From an uncultured Christensenella sp. (GTDB lineage: Bacteria > Bacillota > Clostridia > Christensenellales > UBA3700), in assembly GCA_949284695.1 (NCBI GenBank), contig CASDWJ010000035.1:1-55027 (forward strand): DNA of 55,027 nucleotides, given 5' to 3'. A program made the translations under genes and the position numbers. The notes below the pieces were generated by a model, which searched no databases, was not told the origin of the DNA, and saw only the letters and a program-made list of their open reading frames with translations. Below are positions 23,825 to 32,209 of this stretch, piece by piece. Within the stretch, counting starts at the first letter, position 1. The number at the start of each line of letters is the position of its first letter.

Positions 23825-25198
23825 GTGAAAAAAGGCGATATTATTGACGTAGATATAGTATCCTCGGGCATGGAAGGCGAGGGAGTGGCGCGCGTAGACG
23901 GCATGGTCGTCTTCGTGCCGCTTTGCATGCAGGGCGAAAAGGTCAGAGTGATGGTGCGCGAGGTAAACAAGAAATTCGCGCGCGCTACCGTGATAAAAGT
24001 GCTCGAGGCGAGCGGCGACAGGGTCTATCCGCTGTGCCCTATATTCTACCGTTGCGGCTGTTGCGATATGCAGCATATACGTTACGACAAGCAGAAAGAG
24101 ATAAAAAGAGCCAACGTCAAGGCGTGTCTCTACAAGGCGCTCGGCAGAGACGTGGAAGTGGACGAGGTGCGCGGCGACGGCGCGATCTTCGGATACCGCA
24201 ACAAGATACAGGTGCCGCTTGCCATGCAGGGCGGCAAGGTCGTCGCAGGTTATTACAAGGGCAACACGCATACGGTCGTGCCTTTCGGGGAAAGGGTCAG
24301 AGACGATCTGGGCGCATGCGTGATGTACGAGCGCGGCATGCAGGATATGCTCGACGCTTTTCTCGGATATGCGCAAGAGCTCGGGCTCGATTGCTACGAC
24401 GAGAGGACGGGCAAAGGATTTCTTCGCCATTTCGTAGCGCGCAGAGTGGGCGACAAGTATGCCGTCGTAGTGGTCGGCAACGGCAAAAAACTGCCCGCCG
24501 AAAAGAAGCTGATATCGGCTTTAACAGACACGGGCAGGAAATTTTCTTTATATTTTAACAGCAATACAAAAAAGACCAACGTGATCATGTCTCCAGAGCT
24601 GAAGACGATCTACGGCGAGGAGAGGCTTGAGGCGAACGTCTGCGGCGTGCGCGCAAAAGTCAGCCCGCTTTCGTTCATGCAGATCAACGACGGCGTCAGG
24701 GATATGATCTATACCGCAGTTGCAGAAGTCGTCAAAGAAGATGGCGCGGATGTCGTGGTGGACGCTTACAGCGGCGCGGGCGTACTGACCAACGTGCTCG
24801 CAAAGAGTGCGGGAGAGGTCTACGGGATAGAGATCGTGCCCGAGGCGGTCGCCGACGCGGACGAGCTGACTGCCGCCTGCGGCAATACGGGCAAGGTCAG
24901 GAACGTATGCGGAGACTGCGCCAGGGAGCTTCCTCCGCTTGCGGAAAAGCTGAGAGAGCGGGGAGAGAGGTTTGCGGTAGTTCTCGACCCTCCGCGCAAG
25001 GGGTGCGACGAGCGCGTGCTCGAAGCGATAAAGGCGGCAAGCCCCGATCTGGTCTGCTACGTGTCCTGCAATCCCGCGACGCTTGCCCGCGATCTCGCAA
25101 GGCTTGACGCGCGTTACGAGATAAAGTCTGTGACCCCATACGACATGTTCCCGCAGACCAAGCACGTCGAGACGCTGGTACTGCTTTCCAAAAAATGA
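23825..25198 (+). CDS. 23S rRNA (uracil-5-)-methyltransferase, RlmD/RlmCD type
   Basis: A 457-residue SAM-dependent RNA methyltransferase making 5-methyluridine in rRNA (a tRNA target is possible in some relatives). An N-terminal TRAM domain (residues ~1-60) is followed by the iron-sulfur Cys cluster in CPIFYRCGCCDMQH. The Rossmann domain has DAYSGAGVLTNVLA, and the catalytic segments are DPPRKGCDERVLE and SCNPATLARDLARL; the nucleophilic Cys is in SCNP and the Glu base is in HVETLVLL. GTG 23825 is chosen because the TRAM domain needs it. It has no ribosome binding site and starts about seven bases after a -10 box, so the message looks leaderless. Confidence 0.92.
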   Translation: MKKGDIIDVDIVSSGMEGEGVARVDGMVVFVPLCMQGEKVRVMVREVNKKFARATVIKVLEASGDRVYPLCPIFYRCGCCDMQHIRYDKQKEIKRANVKACLYKALGRDVEVDEVRGDGAIFGYRNKIQVPLAMQGGKVVAGYYKGNTHTVVPFGERVRDDLGACVMYERGMQDMLDAFLGYAQELGLDCYDERTGKGFLRHFVARRVGDKYAVVVVGNGKKLPAEKKLISALTDTGRKFSLYFNSNTKKTNVIMSPELKTIYGEERLEANVCGVRAKVSPLSFMQINDGVRDMIYTAVAEVVKEDGADVVVDAYSGAGVLTNVLAKSAGEVYGIEIVPEAVADADELTAACGNTGKVRNVCGDCARELPPLAEKLRERGERFAVVLDPPRKGCDERVLEAIKAASPDLVCYVSCNPATLARDLARLDARYEIKSVTPYDMFPQTKHVETLVLLSKK

Positions 25199-25275: not shown

Positions 25276-26604
25276 ATGAGAGACTTGCTTTACAGACGTA
25301 TCTGCATAGCCGTTCTGACGCTCGTTCTGTTGGCGGCGATTTTGGTCATGTCGGCTTCGTGCGATTTACACGACGATCCCGCAGAAGAAAAAGATCTGAC
25401 GGTTGAATTGTATTACGTCGCTCAGAGCAACGATCTCGTCGTAGACAACGAGAACAAGACGGCGACCTTTACCGTGAGCGACGATTCGGGAAAGTTCGGT
25501 CTTTAGGGGATAACTTTCCGCAACAATTCGGAAATCGTTTTCAAAGCGTATTCCGACCAGGAGCTTACCGAGGAGATCGAAAACGAAGTCGCGCTGTCGG
25601 CAGGCGAAAATATTTTTTACATACAGGCGTGGCACAAGGACGCTCCGTCCGCAAAAGTGACGTATACATTCACCGTGACCTGTCCTGAGGCGCACGTTCA
25701 CGCTTTCGGGGAATGGAAAGTTACCGTCGAGCCAACCTGCGAGGACGGCGTAAAGACGTTTGCTTGTCAAAGAGTCGGTTGCGGAGACAGCTATACCGAA
25801 CCGATCCCCGCTACCGGTCACTCCTTTATAGACGGCGTATGTCAGAATTGCGGTCTTAAATACGGCTACACGGAGGGATCGAGCTATGAGCTCAACGGAG
25901 AAGGCACGGCGTATACGGTCACGGGGATAGGGACGGCGACGGATACCGATATAGTTATCCCCTACGAATACGAAGGGCTTCCTGTTACCGCCGTCGGCGA
26001 TTATGCGTTCATTTTAAACGCAGATATCACAAGCGTTACGATACCTGAGGGCGTAACGAGTATAGGCATGTACGCATTTCAGTATTGCAGCGAATTGAGA
26101 TCTGTGGAGATCCCTGCAAGTGTGGAGAGTATAGGCACGTGCGCTTTCTATATGTGTGAGTCGTTGCAGTCCGTGGAAATTGCAAAGGATTCAAAACTCA
26201 AGAAAATCAGCGGCGGAGTGTTCAATGATTGCTATGCTCTCGAAGTCCTGAATTTGCCGGCGAGCGTTGTTGAGATCGAAGACGGAGCCATCTCAGGATG
26301 TACTTCTTTGAAGCAGATCACCTTTGCGCCGGGCAGTAAATTGGAACGTATCGGCGATTACATTTTCGCACAATGTAAGAAGCTGGAAAGTATAGTAATA
26401 CCCGAAAGCGTCACCTACATCGGCGCAACGCACGAATATACGCTTGCGGAAATATATTATGTCTGAGGTGCGGACGACTGGACTGCGGTAACGGGCGCGG
26501 GCAGTTTTGCAGGGAACGCCACGGTGTATTACTACTCCGAGAGCCAACCCGTACAAAGCGGAAATTACTGGCATTACGACGGGCAATCGATCGTCAAGTG
26601 GTGA
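25276..26604 (-). other. No minus-strand gene here; see plus-strand pseudogene
   Basis: The minus strand of this stretch shows no coding sequence with a ribosome binding site. Only the damaged plus-strand leucine-rich-repeat gene is supported. Confidence 0.5.
25276..26604 (+). pseudogene. Leucine-rich-repeat (BspA-like) surface lipoprotein, two in-frame stops
   Basis: AAAGGAG precedes ATG 25276 and the product starts with a signal peptide ending in a lipobox-like SASC. Frame 1 continues in sense through a TAG at 25504 (FGL-stop-GITFRNNSE) and a TGA at 26464 (IYYV-stop-GADDWTAV) to a TGA at 26602, ending NYWHYDGQSIVKW as BspA-like proteins do. Between them are a beta domain with paired Cys (CEDGVKTFACQRVGCGD, CQNCGLKYGY) and LRR_5 units (SVTIPEGVTSIGMYAF, SVEIPASVESIGTCAF). 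Both TGA and TAG are normal stops elsewhere in this DNA, so the gene is probably decaying. A GTCTTC/GAAGAC hairpin lies in its leader. Confidence 0.82.
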
Positions 26605-28129: not shown

Positions 28130-28177
28130 TATTATAGTGCGTCGATCGTACGCGACGTTTAACTCAAGAGAGGAGAT

Positions 28178-31100
28178 ATGAGCAGATACAGCAGATTATT
28201 CAACGTAATAATGAAAAAGTGCTTTGGCGGTAACGTCAAAGAAGTCAAAGCGGGAGAATTCGTGCTTGCGGTCATCAGAGTGCTTTCCACGCCTGCGGAG
28301 GATTTTGCAGAGAACGAGGATCAGATCGACGAGATAAAGGCGGAGCTTGAAAGTATAAGAGATTTTTTTGCAAAGCAGGAAATAGATCTGAAGAGTACCG
28401 AAGAAAAACTCGCCGCGTTCAAAAGAAGCGGCGCCGACGAGTGGGAGGAAAAGCTGGTATTCAAAAGCGTTCTTGACAGATGCGTCAAAGATAACGTCGC
28501 CCACGGAGACAACGTGTCGGCAGACAAGATCTGCCGCGCCATCTTCAAATACGACATGAGTCAGATCAACGAATGTATTGTGTACAACGAGGGCAAGGCG
28601 CCTGCCAAAACAGACCCGTTGTCGGATCCGATCTTTGAAGAGCTTGTCTTGAAAACATGGGCAGATATAAGCGGAGCAGGTGAAAAAAAGAAAGAAAAGA
28701 AAGAGGAGACGGAGCCTCGCGAACCGGCTGTTAAACCCGAGGAACTTCTGTCTGAACTGTCTGCGACCGTTACCCATGTCAGAGAGGAACTTGAGAAGAA
28801 CGTCTTCGGACAGGCAAAGGCGATAGATTCGTTCATATCCGGCTATTTTGAGGCGGAACTGCGCGCGGCTTCTATGAAAGAAAGGTCAAAACCCCGCGCT
28901 TCTTTCCTGTTCGCGGGACCTCCCGGAGTGGGCAAGACGTTCCTTGCAGAGCAGGTCGCCCGGGTGCTCGGTCTGCCTTTCAGACGCTTTGACATGAGCG
29001 AATACGTAGACCACGAGAGCAATATAGAATTCTGCGGATCGGACAAGGTTTACAAAAACGGCAAAGAGGGCAACGTGACGAGCTTTGTGGATGAAAATCC
29101 TCATTGCGTGCTTCTGTTCGACGAGATAGAAAAGGCTCACATCAGCATAATATATCTGTTCCTTCAGATGCTCGACGCCGGCAGGCTGAGAGACAATTTT
29201 ACAGACAAGGAAGTGTCTTTCAAAGACGCGATAATCATACTGACGACCAATGCGGGCAAGGAGTTGTACGAGGACGATTCGGTCAACCTCGCGTCCGTAT
29301 CGCGCAAAGCGGTGCTCAAGGCATTGTCGTCGGAAACAAATCCCGTGACCGGGGCAACCTACTTCCCGCCTGCGATATGTTCGCGTTTTGCTTCGGGCAA
29401 CGTCATCATGTTCAACAGAATGGACGCTTCTCAGCTTCTCAGAGTGGCGAACGGTGAGATGGACAAGTGCGCGAAAGAGATAGGCGCTTCTACCGGGCTG
29501 AGCATCGTGAGCGACGACAAGGTGCCTTACGTGATGCTCTATTCCGAGGGCGCGAACGCAGACGCAAGAACGGTAAAGAGCAAGAGCGGAGCGCTCGTAT
29601 ATCACGAGATATACGAACTGCTCAGACTCGTGAGAGGCAAGGGCGAAGACGAGGTCGCAAAACTTAAGAAGATATCGTTTGAAGCTGCCGTATCCGACGA
29701 CCGCGAGATCGCGCCGTACTTTAAAAAGAGCGGAGTCGCGACCGTGCTCGTGTTCGGAGACAAAGAACTTTACAAAAAATGCGCAGAGAAGATCAAACGC
29801 CACAAGGTGGTCTATGCCGCAAGTGCAGAAGCCGCCAAACGCATACTCGGCAATAAAGACGTCAGCTGCATCCTCTGCGACATCACCTATAAAAAGAGGA
29901 CCAAGGGAGATCTGCTCAATATAGAGGACGTGGATTCCGAGGGCAGAGATTTCATGAATTACGTCACTGCGCGCAATCTTGCGCCCGTCATCATCGTGTT
30001 CGAGAACGAGGGCGACATAGGCAAGGAAGAAGCGTATTCGCTGGCGCAGAGCGGAGCGAGATCGGTAGCGTACGTCAACGGCAGCGGGGACAAGAGCATC
30101 GACGCTTTCGTCAGCGCAGAGATCGAGGAGCAGTACCGCAACAGCTGTCTGCTCGACCTCGCAAAAGCCAACAAGATCATATCTTACAGGACGTCGCAGT
30201 CTTTGAGTGAGGACGGCAGTGAAGCGAGCATCACCTTCTTCGGGTTCAGAAAAGAGATCGCGCCCGACGCAGGCGACAACAAGAAGATACTCGACAACGT
30301 CAGCAAGCCCGACGTCAGGTTCGACGACGTCATCGGCGCAAAGGACGCTAAAGAAGAGCTGAATTATTTCATAGAATATCTTAAGGATCCCAAGAAATTC
30401 GTGCGCTCGGGCGTAAAGCCGCCCAAGGGCATACTGCTTTACGGCCCTCCGGGCACAGGCAAGACACTTCTTGCCAAGGCTATGGCGGGAGAGTCCGAAG
30501 TCACGTTCATCAGGGCGGAAGGCAACCAGTTCCTCAAGCGTTACGTGGGCGAGGGACCCGAGGCGATACACGATCTGTTCCGCACCGCGAGAAAGTACGC
30601 GCCGTCTATACTGTTCATCGACGAGATCGACGTGATAGGCAAAGAGCGCGGTATGTCGGAGCACGAGCATCACACAGACATTCTGACCGCGCTTCTGACC
30701 GAGATGGACGGTTTCAGAGTGGATTCGGGCAAGCCCGTATTCGTACTCGCCGCAACCAATTATTCGATCAAGAGCGGCACCAACAGGAGTCTTGACGACG
30801 CGCTTCTCAGAAGATTCGACAGGCGCATATACGTCGATCTGCCGGGCAGAGAGGAGCGCATGCAGTTCATCAGGAAAAAGGTCGCAAAGATAAAGAAGCA
30901 TTCGCTGACTCAGGGTATGCTCGACAACATAGCCATGCGCTCTACGGGAGCAAGTCTTGCGTCGCTCGACTCGATATTCGAACTCGCGCTCAGAAACGTG
31001 ATCAAGTCCAAAAGTCTTACGCTCACCGACGAGATACTCGAGGAGTCTTTTGAGATATTCAACAACGGCGAGGAGGTCAAGTGGGACGAGAGAGAACTTC

Positions 31101-31627
31101 TCAGGACCGCGCGTCATGAGGCAGGGCACGCGATAGTGCACAGACATTTCGGCAGAAAATCCACCTATATGACGATCGTCTCCCGTGGCAATCACGGCGG
31201 TTACAATCAGGCGCAGATTGACGAAAAGGGCGGCTATACAAAAGACGAACTGCTGTCTTTCGTCAGGGCAAGCCTCGGCGGCAGAGCGGCGGAGATCGTC
31301 TACTACGGAGAAAAGGACGGCATTTCAACCGGCGCTTCGGCAGACCTCGCCAATGCGAGCGGCATTGTCAAAGATATGATATGCACTTACGGCATGTACG
31401 AGGAGTTCGGGCAATGCGCTCTGTCCGAGATAAAGGCTGTGGGCAGCGAGATGATGGCACGCATTATCGCCAAGATCAACGATATACTCAAGGAGGAGCT
31501 CGCCAAGGCGGTCGATATCGTCCGCAACAACAAGGAGATATTTGACAAGCTGGTCGATAAGCTGATCGAAAAAAGCGCGCTCAAGACCGAGGAGATCGAG
31601 GAGATTCTCAAGGACGTAAAAAACTGA
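28178..31627 (+). CDS. Hsp100-type AAA+ / receiver-like / FtsH-type AAA+ metalloprotease fusion
   Basis: A 1149-residue cytoplasmic protein. Residues ~1-190 are helical and weakly Clp-N-like, then a basic/acidic linker. Residues ~200-420 are a ClpB-D2-like AAA+ module: FGQAKAIDSF, Walker A GPPGVGKT at 247-254, FDMSEYVD, Walker B LLFDEIEK with D315/E316, sensor ILTTNAG. Residues ~520-660 look like a receiver fold (VLVFGDK, CILCDITYK, PVIIVFENEG). Residues ~710-1149 are FtsH-like: Walker A GPPGTGKT at 756, pore motif RYVG, D815/E816, SRH RRFDRRIYVDLP, then zinc motif HEAGH at 980-984 and Asp1056 in STGASADLA. No transmembrane helix, unlike normal FtsH. GAGAGGAG precedes the ATG. Predicted unfoldase-protease. 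Confidence 0.9.
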   Translation: MSRYSRLFNVIMKKCFGGNVKEVKAGEFVLAVIRVLSTPAEDFAENEDQIDEIKAELESIRDFFAKQEIDLKSTEEKLAAFKRSGADEWEEKLVFKSVLDRCVKDNVAHGDNVSADKICRAIFKYDMSQINECIVYNEGKAPAKTDPLSDPIFEELVLKTWADISGAGEKKKEKKEETEPREPAVKPEELLSELSATVTHVREELEKNVFGQAKAIDSFISGYFEAELRAASMKERSKPRASFLFAGPPGVGKTFLAEQVARVLGLPFRRFDMSEYVDHESNIEFCGSDKVYKNGKEGNVTSFVDENPHCVLLFDEIEKAHISIIYLFLQMLDAGRLRDNFTDKEVSFKDAIIILTTNAGKELYEDDSVNLASVSRKAVLKALSSETNPVTGATYFPPAICSRFASGNVIMFNRMDASQLLRVANGEMDKCAKEIGASTGLSIVSDDKVPYVMLYSEGANADARTVKSKSGALVYHEIYELLRLVRGKGEDEVAKLKKISFEAAVSDDREIAPYFKKSGVATVLVFGDKELYKKCAEKIKRHKVVYAASAEAAKRILGNKDVSCILCDITYKKRTKGDLLNIEDVDSEGRDFMNYVTARNLAPVIIVFENEGDIGKEEAYSLAQSGARSVAYVNGSGDKSIDAFVSAEIEEQYRNSCLLDLAKANKIISYRTSQSLSEDGSEASITFFGFRKEIAPDAGDNKKILDNVSKPDVRFDDVIGAKDAKEELNYFIEYLKDPKKFVRSGVKPPKGILLYGPPGTGKTLLAKAMAGESEVTFIRAEGNQFLKRYVGEGPEAIHDLFRTARKYAPSILFIDEIDVIGKERGMSEHEHHTDILTALLTEMDGFRVDSGKPVFVLAATNYSIKSGTNRSLDDALLRRFDRRIYVDLPGREERMQFIRKKVAKIKKHSLTQGMLDNIAMRSTGASLASLDSIFELALRNVIKSKSLTLTDEILEESFEIFNNGEEVKWDERELLRTARHEAGHAIVHRHFGRKSTYMTIVSRGNHGGYNQAQIDEKGGYTKDELLSFVRASLGGRAAEIVYYGEKDGISTGASADLANASGIVKDMICTYGMYEEFGQCALSEIKAVGSEMMARIIAKINDILKEELAKAVDIVRNNKEIFDKLVDKLIEKSALKTEEIEEILKDVKN

Positions 31628-31687
31628 AACAGGGTGCGGCGCCAACCGCACGCAATAATAAAAACAATTTCCAAGGAGGGAAAAATA

Positions 31688-32161
31688 ATGGCAGACAAGC
31701 AGGCTAAGGCTGAAAAAGTCTACAAAACAATGGTAAAAGCTCTCAAAGAGAAAAACTGGCACTTTGAAGAGCGTGAACAGGATCTCACGATCGTATCCAA
31801 CTATTCGGGCGACGATATTCCCGTCAGATTCATCATCAGGATCGACGCAGGCAGAGAAGTCATCCAGTATCTTTCGCCGCTTCCGTTCAAAATGGACGAG
31901 AGCAAGCGCGTAGACGCGGCGGTCGCCGTATGCGTGGCAAACTACGGTCTCGTAAACGGCAGCTTCGACCTCGACATCAATGACGGCGAGATCAGATACA
32001 GACTTACCACGAGCTACAGTGATTGCGAGATGGGCGAGGGATTCTTCTACCAGATGATGGCTGTCGCCGTCATTACGACCGACGATTACAACGACAAGTT
32101 CATGATGCTCAACAAGGGCATGATGACTTTGCAGCAGTTTATCGATATGAGAAACAACTGA
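31688..32161 (+). CDS. YbjN-like protein
   Basis: A 157-residue soluble protein with the alternating pattern of the YbjN/type-III-secretion-chaperone-like fold: a first helix (KVYKTMVKALKEKNW), antiparallel strands (LTIVSNYSGDDIPVRFIIRID), a helix carrying KRVDAAVAVCVANYGLV, then strands and a C-terminal helix (MMLNKGMMTLQQFID). AAGGAGGG lies eight bases before ATG 31688. It follows the AAA+ fusion by 60 bases with no terminator between, and a terminator follows it, so the two form a two-gene operon. A substrate-adaptor or chaperone role for the fusion protease is inference. Confidence 0.8.
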   Translation: MADKQAKAEKVYKTMVKALKEKNWHFEEREQDLTIVSNYSGDDIPVRFIIRIDAGREVIQYLSPLPFKMDESKRVDAAVAVCVANYGLVNGSFDLDINDGEIRYRLTTSYSDCEMGEGFFYQMMAVAVITTDDYNDKFMMLNKGMMTLQQFIDMRNN

Positions 32162-32183
32162 CAATAGTCGGCACAAGACACAG

Positions 32184-32209
32184 CCCCGGCTCTGCCGGGG
32201 TTTTGTTTT
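32184..32209 (+). terminator. Terminator of the AAA+ fusion/YbjN operon
   Basis: Arms CCCCGGC / GCCGGGG with a TCT loop and TTTTGTTTT. Confidence 0.92.

Follow-up and report, generated by a model that had tools for sequence, protein, structure and literature searches.

The 55,027-nucleotide stretch analyzed here (the window) corresponds to contig C35 in the draft genome of an uncultured Christensenella sp. (1.85 Mb in 46 contigs, 81% complete), and it raises the question of what a single protein might do with an Hsp100-type motor, a receiver-like domain, and an entire FtsH-type protease. The protein, called the fusion here, was recognized from its open reading frame (ORF), domain matches, and a structure model. 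It is 1149 residues long and is encoded at 28178..31627 on the forward strand, with GAGGAG (28170-28175) immediately 5′ of its ATG; the gene of a YbjN-like protein lies downstream. The answer that we favor, with moderate confidence, is a soluble double-ring unfoldase-protease that works with this YbjN-like partner in a system, under regulation, for stress or defense against invaders. This reading is supported by the invariance of the residues of both motors and of the protease, by the recovery of the fusion as a whole ORF in 77 of 80 loci, and by its recurrent linkage to YbjN, RyR, and CARF genes.

The fusion contains two AAA+ modules. AAA1 (residues 187-503; 28736..29686, +) is of the ClpA/ClpB D2 type and intact, as seen in the structure model, the alignment of relatives, the best Pfam match in this part (AAA_2, residues 238-377), and the NCBIfam ClpA/ClpB/ClpV models, which match at about residues 190-470. 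AAA2 (residues 701-965; 30278..31072, +) is of the FtsH type and likewise intact according to Pfam (AAA, residues 752-887), NCBIfam, the structure search, and the alignment. It precedes the M41 zinc protease domain (residues 971-1143; 31088..31606, +), which coincides with the Pfam Peptidase_M41 match and is also supported by the alignment; the NCBIfam FtsH_fam model spans residues 703-1140. The fusion falls below the cut-off of the FtsH equivalog model TIGR01241 (339.2 versus 600 bits). It also lacks the D1 plus D2 pair of Hsp100 proteins, given that the D2-type module occurs alone and the second module is FtsH-type.

Residue conservation was followed in an alignment of 78 proteins, the window fusion and 77 relatives. 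All 78 share the Walker A lysines (K253 and K762), the Walker B pairs (D315-E316 and D815-E816), the sensor-1 asparagines (N358 and N861), and the arginines R403, R464, and R878-R879. The zinc ligands and catalytic residues of the M41 domain, namely, H980-E981 and H984 of the HEAGH motif (980-984) and D1056, are equally invariant. The positions checked in a more diverse set were identical in 23 of 23 proteins. At position 292, all 78 proteins have a pore-type aromatic (Tyr, Phe, or Trp); that at position 789 is found in at least 65, and Gly791 is found in 75, the other three having gaps. The labels pore loop, Arg finger, and sensor are those used for ClpB and FtsH. The invariant motifs of both modules bear out the two intact AAA+ motors plus protease expected by the first-pass annotation of this DNA. 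Together with the domain matches and the predicted receiver fold described below, they also uphold its central description of one protein with a ClpB-type AAA+ module, a receiver-like domain, and a complete FtsH-type AAA+ module plus M41 protease.

No transmembrane segment was found in the fusion by a Kyte-Doolittle scan, where the highest 19-residue mean was 1.32 (threshold, 1.6), in contrast with the peak of 3.24 obtained for the ordinary FtsH of the same host. The absence of a membrane helix noted at the outset therefore holds for this protein; 6 of 80 relatives slightly exceed the threshold (1.62 to 1.92). The AlphaFold model of the fusion has a mean predicted local distance difference test (pLDDT) score of 85.6 and a predicted TM score (pTM) of 0.58, the latter meaning that the placement of the domains relative to one another is unreliable. 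In a structure search with the full-length model, the FtsH half matched FtsH, AFG3L2, and YME1, with TMt values of up to 0.78. The 50 matches listed are FtsH-type and Ycf2-FtsHi chains, so that this search bears on neither AAA1 nor the receiver-like domain.

The domain between the two motors (residues 520-663; 29735..30166, +) was defined from the alignment, from profiles, and from the model, where its blocks have pLDDT values of about 81 to 95. Its strands and helices, five of each, alternate as they do in receivers (522-526, 529-538, 543-547, 550-559, 562-567, 588-599, 604-608, 616-624, 629-632, and 641-663). A profile of 42 such regions gave 33 matches in the PDB at an E value of up to 10. 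Judged by name, two-component proteins account for 25 of these (best E value, 0.0014), and unrelated or designed proteins make up the remaining 8. When compared by hhalign with 14 receivers from four genomes, Asp568 aligned with the acceptor aspartate (E value, 1.7e-4; probability, 49.8%). Pfam names no receiver family in the slice from the window itself (0 families); over the 42 slices, at E values of up to 1, it reports Response_reg in 6 and OKR_DC_1_N in 7. All but one of the 78 aligned proteins have Asp568, which closes strand 3, and the inserted loop that follows it has Asp584 in all 78 and Asn581 in 75. The remainder of a phosphorylation site is not conserved: position 528 of the acidic pair is Asp in just 33 of 78 proteins, position 608 in strand 4 is mostly Gln or Glu instead of Thr or Ser, and no Lys is conserved at 629-633 in strand 5. 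This makes phosphorylation gating doubtful. Hence, of the receiver-like switch that had been proposed, the predicted fold stands and the phosphoacceptor Asp is present, whereas the acidic pair is not conserved and gating by phosphorylation is not supported. We take the region to have a receiver fold, as predicted by the model, and to be more likely a pseudo-receiver, with a putative conserved pocket, than a phospho-receiver.

The N domain (residues 1-135; 28178..28582, +) is mainly helical in the model, and a profile built from 34 N regions matches the N domain of ClpA (E value, 8.2e-5). Clp_N is not among the Pfam families listed for the N regions (25 of 31 families), and a genome-wide Clp_N search gave no match at the fusion locus. 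By eye, the N regions in the alignment vary between fusion classes, which is expected of the part that would receive the substrate.

The fusion is not confined to this genome. The first-pass annotation had called for a search for the fused architecture in sequence collections, and the architecture was recovered widely enough to define a family. The best 80 of 131 relatives, drawn from 195 candidate stretches in an 84,980-species collection, were taken as the set of loci. The whole fusion is one ORF of 1018 to 1281 residues in 77 of them; the exceptions are L096, with 730 residues, and L160 and L167, which reach the contig end. By title, the 80 are Clostridia and related Firmicutes, either uncultured or assembled from metagenomes and many from the herbivore gut, plus one named just uncultured bacterium. 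The closest named record, L094, is 81% identical over a 346-residue query. A whole-protein query over 59 genomes, including that of the window, found ten further places with a match across both AAA+ modules. Within the order, the N-terminal half was detected at an E value of 1e-45 in 27 of 396 genomes (17 of 142 genera), including that of the window. At an E value of 1e-40, matches occurred in 3 of 391 genomes at the class level, two of them, the window's included, from the same order, and in 3 of 398 at the phylum level, one being the window's. The family is conserved but patchy in its distribution, and it has a recurrent partner and a rich neighborhood. M41 matches number three in the host genome: the ordinary FtsH, which has membrane segments, the window fusion, and another fusion, located on contig C25, with an open frame of 1115 residues and 39% identity to the window fusion. 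It also codes for an open frame of 852 residues bearing Clp_N, taken as ClpB/ClpC-like.

The partner gene (31688..32161, +) starts at the ATG at 31688 behind AAGGAGG (31673-31679), not at the GTG farther upstream (31634), and encodes 157 residues with a type III chaperone fold according to its model (pLDDT, 92.9). The model matches the type III secretion chaperones VecA, SchA, and ExsC and the YbjN-family proteins AmyR, YbjN, and DR1245; the Pfam YbjN (PF10722) score of 19.1 is under the gathering score of 22. YbjN-like genes were found in the vicinity of the fusion at 39 of the 80 loci, downstream in 21 and upstream in 18, 16 of the latter being tandem pairs. They share the strand of the fusion in 38 of the 39, the pair of L155 being the sole one on the opposite strand, and begin no more than 112 bases from the fusion end in 17. 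In a FastTree tree of 94 fusions, with neighbor labels for 78 rows, YbjN-like genes accompany fusions on deeply separated branches, downstream copies and upstream pairs fall mostly into two large groups, and 27 state changes were counted, for which reason the link between fusion and YbjN looks old and often lost. The chaperone-like fold and the linkage claimed for this protein at the outset were, therefore, found, the fold as a prediction and the linkage as recurrent rather than universal.

Among 62 chosen genomes, a YbjN-like gene was found in 14 of 31 with a fusion and in 4 of 31 without, the latter being hand-picked. Of the 23 YbjN rows in fusion-bearing genomes, 19 are within about 2.5 kb of the fusion by coordinates and 4 (in G294 and G917) are farther away. 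Two of the comparison genomes deserve mention. G046 has a broken, distant match to fusion residues 186-708 (27% identity; C47:2536-4122) with four in-frame TAA codons, either a decayed copy or something else; G047, scored as fusion-less, has two adjacent YbjN-like genes and may carry a diverged fusion below the cut-off. L168 codes for a double-length YbjN-like protein of 322 residues, its ORF ending 1458 bases before the fusion. This fused copy hints that the two proteins of a tandem pair work as a dimer. From its linkage, the YbjN-like protein is a probable adaptor of the fusion protease.

Clustering of the genes in the 80 loci revealed further recurrent neighbors. Membrane TrkA/RyR proteins (cluster c2) occur in 28 loci, always on the strand of the fusion; all 30 members contain a hydrophobic segment, and the cluster has a profile that matches an RyR structure (E value, 2e-7). 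Proteins with CARF and PD-(D/E)XK nuclease domains (c3) occur in 19 loci (L112, L116, L135, L138, L143, and 14 more). One member matches PADLOC CARF_PDDEXK (E value, 2.8e-30), and the cluster profile matches VC1899 (8.5e-7) and Can2 (2.6e-4). A stand-alone RyR domain (c4) is found in 13 loci, one member having a Pfam E value of 5.5e-39. The second fusion of the host, on C25, and those of its congeners form a paralogue class, where the gene directly upstream is homologous to c2 in 8 loci (hhalign, 99.1%; E value, 5.3e-19). Some of these loci have a helicase with an MTES_1575 nuclease first and VWA, PP2C-like, and kinase genes after. Two well-separated fusion classes are thus accompanied by the same kinds of protein, the paralogue loci coming from one genus. 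Conflict systems typically include genes of the RyR, CARF, and helicase-nuclease kinds, in part by PADLOC naming. The paralogue class and the TrkA/RyR, CARF-nuclease, and VWA/PP2C-like/kinase neighbors shift the likely biology from general proteostasis to a regulated conflict or stress system.

Some of these neighbors were assigned individually. The host locus on C25 (L004:3264-15789) has the order helicase-nuclease, RyR-like, c2-like, fusion, VWA-like ORF, PP2C-like, and kinase; its VWA-like ORF was read by eye, with Pfam support from the copy in L040. The PP2C-like identity comes from one alignment of four proteins of both classes (best PDB E value, 0.0038) and from motifs. Among the neighbor alignments, A11 has a weak RyR structural match (E value, 0.0075) and A12 has no useful one, its RyR-like tail being a reading from motifs. 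L080 and L081 have very large genes (about 1160 to 1200 residues) close to the fusion, with a kinase read from motifs in one.

These observations are consistent with a mechanism in which the fusion would act as a soluble, self-contained AAA+ protease whose subunits probably form a hexamer. The ClpA-like N domain would take in the substrate, the ClpB-D2-type ring AAA1 would pull on it and unfold it, if threading runs in this direction, and the FtsH-type ring AAA2 would feed the chain into the M41 chamber, with the receiver fold as a belt between the rings. The Hsp100 ring and this belt would replace the membrane anchor of FtsH. The YbjN-like protein, a peptide-binding chaperone by fold, would probably present selected substrates or restrain the enzyme, and the machine as a whole would most likely serve regulated stress or anti-invader signaling. 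A more specific version, which we put forward tentatively, is that the fusion could lie at the heart of a family of double-ring proteases, undescribed to date, that join Hsp100 and FtsH in a single chain and serve a nucleotide-signaled anti-invader system as its regulated executioner or switch. TrkA/RyR, CARF nuclease, and kinase/phosphatase/VWA proteins would sense and transmit, and adaptors resembling type III secretion chaperones would choose the targets.

Several observations weigh against this picture of a partnered anti-invader protease. No YbjN-like gene was found in the fetched flank of 41 of the 80 loci, some flanks being short, and 19 of the 78 labeled tree rows have none of YbjN, c2, and CARF nearby. 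Apart from the YbjN-like gene, the scanned neighbors in the window are outside the recurrent set. The Pfam matches of c2 are weak (RyR in 6 of 29 members, best E value 0.0045; TrkA_N in 10 of 29, best E value 1.1e-5), and VWA, PP2C-like, and kinase genes are few (3, 3, and 4 of the 80 loci, VWA and kinase each from one member). All 8 paralogue loci belong to a single genus. No relative was retrieved from viral contigs with two alignment queries, nor from phage or plasmid records with one 346-residue query each, and no mobile context was seen. A phage or plasmid origin, considered separately, is unsupported in these three sources.

The same evidence bears on what else the fusion could be. It might be a soluble housekeeping quality-control protease, an FtsH descendant in which the Hsp100 ring clears aggregated cytosolic proteins and YbjN is a general holdase. 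The ClpA-like N domain and the Hsp100-type ring would suit this role, the scanned neighbors in the window are ordinary chromosomal genes, and G004 retains several of the downstream ones. This is unlikely, however, given the patchy presence within the order, the ordinary FtsH and Clp_N-bearing frame already in the genome, and recurrent neighbors of the RyR, CARF-nuclease, and kinase/VWA kinds. A true two-component output, with a histidine kinase phosphorylating Asp568 to open or close the protease, appears improbable: the near-universal Asp568, its alignment with the acceptor of real receivers, the modeled fold, and the two-component names among the profile matches speak for it, but the residues at 528, 608, and 629-633 do not fit, and no histidine kinase is among the recurrent neighbor clusters scanned or read. 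An artefact of annotation or assembly that joined a clp gene to an ftsH gene could be suspected from the unusual architecture and the fragmented draft genome. It has practically no chance of being correct, because the single ORF recurs across many assemblies with the same linker and receiver-fold region aligned between the halves; the whole ORFs and the invariant catalytic residues rule out an assembly artefact.

The role of the YbjN-like protein allows another reading, in which it is a substrate or an antitoxin-like safety catch of the protease and not its adaptor. A dedicated substrate or inhibitor would be expected to show the same close linkage, in one or two copies, as an adaptor. We consider this reading somewhat unlikely, given that the protein has the fold of secretion chaperones that bind peptides and that the tandem pairs in 16 loci and the fused copy of L168 better fit a dimeric binder.

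Comparison with known systems delimits what is unusual about the fusion. AAA+ proteases usually consist of one motor type and one protease, fused as in FtsH and Lon or recruited as in ClpAP. FtsH shares with the fusion the AAA2 plus M41 half and its motifs (about 35 to 42% identity with the FtsH-type matches that were listed in relatives), and the fusion differs in having no transmembrane segment and in that this half is preceded by two further parts, an intact Hsp100-type module and a receiver-fold domain. ClpA, ClpB, and ClpC share the D2-type module and, by profile match, an N region resembling that of ClpA; the fusion differs in its lack of a D1 module and in having its protease in cis in place of a recruited ClpP. 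The CARF nucleases Card1 and Can2 resemble c3, found beside the fusion in 19 loci and outside the window locus.

The FtsH ternary MoxR-vWA conflict systems have two FtsH-type AAA+ modules, the first inactive, with MoxR and vWA proteins; deltaproteobacteria, actinobacteria, and planctomycetes are named, and ClpN repeats appear in rare variants (PMC7159879). The likeness is that a protein with two AAA+ modules, of which one is FtsH-type and active, belongs to a system with a vWA protein, whereas the first module of the fusion is Hsp100-type (AAA_2/ClpB) and intact. No MoxR gene is among the recurrent neighbor clusters scanned or read. TY-chaperones, including the YbjN fold, have been proposed in other conflict systems (PMC9503650). 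The partner shares its predicted fold with these and with YbjN, AmyR, and DR1245 (PMC9503650, PMC5398634, PMC3575483), and differs in its sub-gathering Pfam score and in its linkage to an AAA+ protease. No description of an Hsp100-receiver-FtsH fusion was found in the open-access literature, a scope outside which most subscription papers fall.

The novelty lies in the combination, within one chain, of a built-in protease with two intact motors that come from separate AAA+ clades and flank a switch-like domain, and the fusion may represent a new form of regulated protein destruction. It makes testable how two dissimilar motors handle a common substrate, whether a ring can be controlled by a receiver fold that is not phosphorylated, and whether proteins with the type III secretion chaperone fold act as protease adaptors. 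Its neighborhood ties protein destruction to CARF, RyR, and kinase-type signaling modules in uncultured Clostridia.

The remaining features of the locus are minor. A terminator-like hairpin, recognized by pattern match only, lies 3′ of both genes (32182..32202, +); the region has 8 such hairpins, versus a mean of 6.2 in shuffled sequences. An antisense open frame of 769 residues (28886-31195, −) overlaps the fusion and is most likely a by-product of codon usage. Upstream are a BspA-type leucine-rich-repeat protein (25657-26466; Pfam LRR_5, E value 5.6e-44) and, 3 kb 5′ of the fusion, an rlmCD-like methyltransferase (23825-25198). Synteny comparison on the upstream side found the latter gene in 10 of 13 genomes of the genus. 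In G005, G009, G010, and G012, it shares a contig with the paralogous fusion, about 23 to 30 kb apart, hinting at an insertion hotspot.

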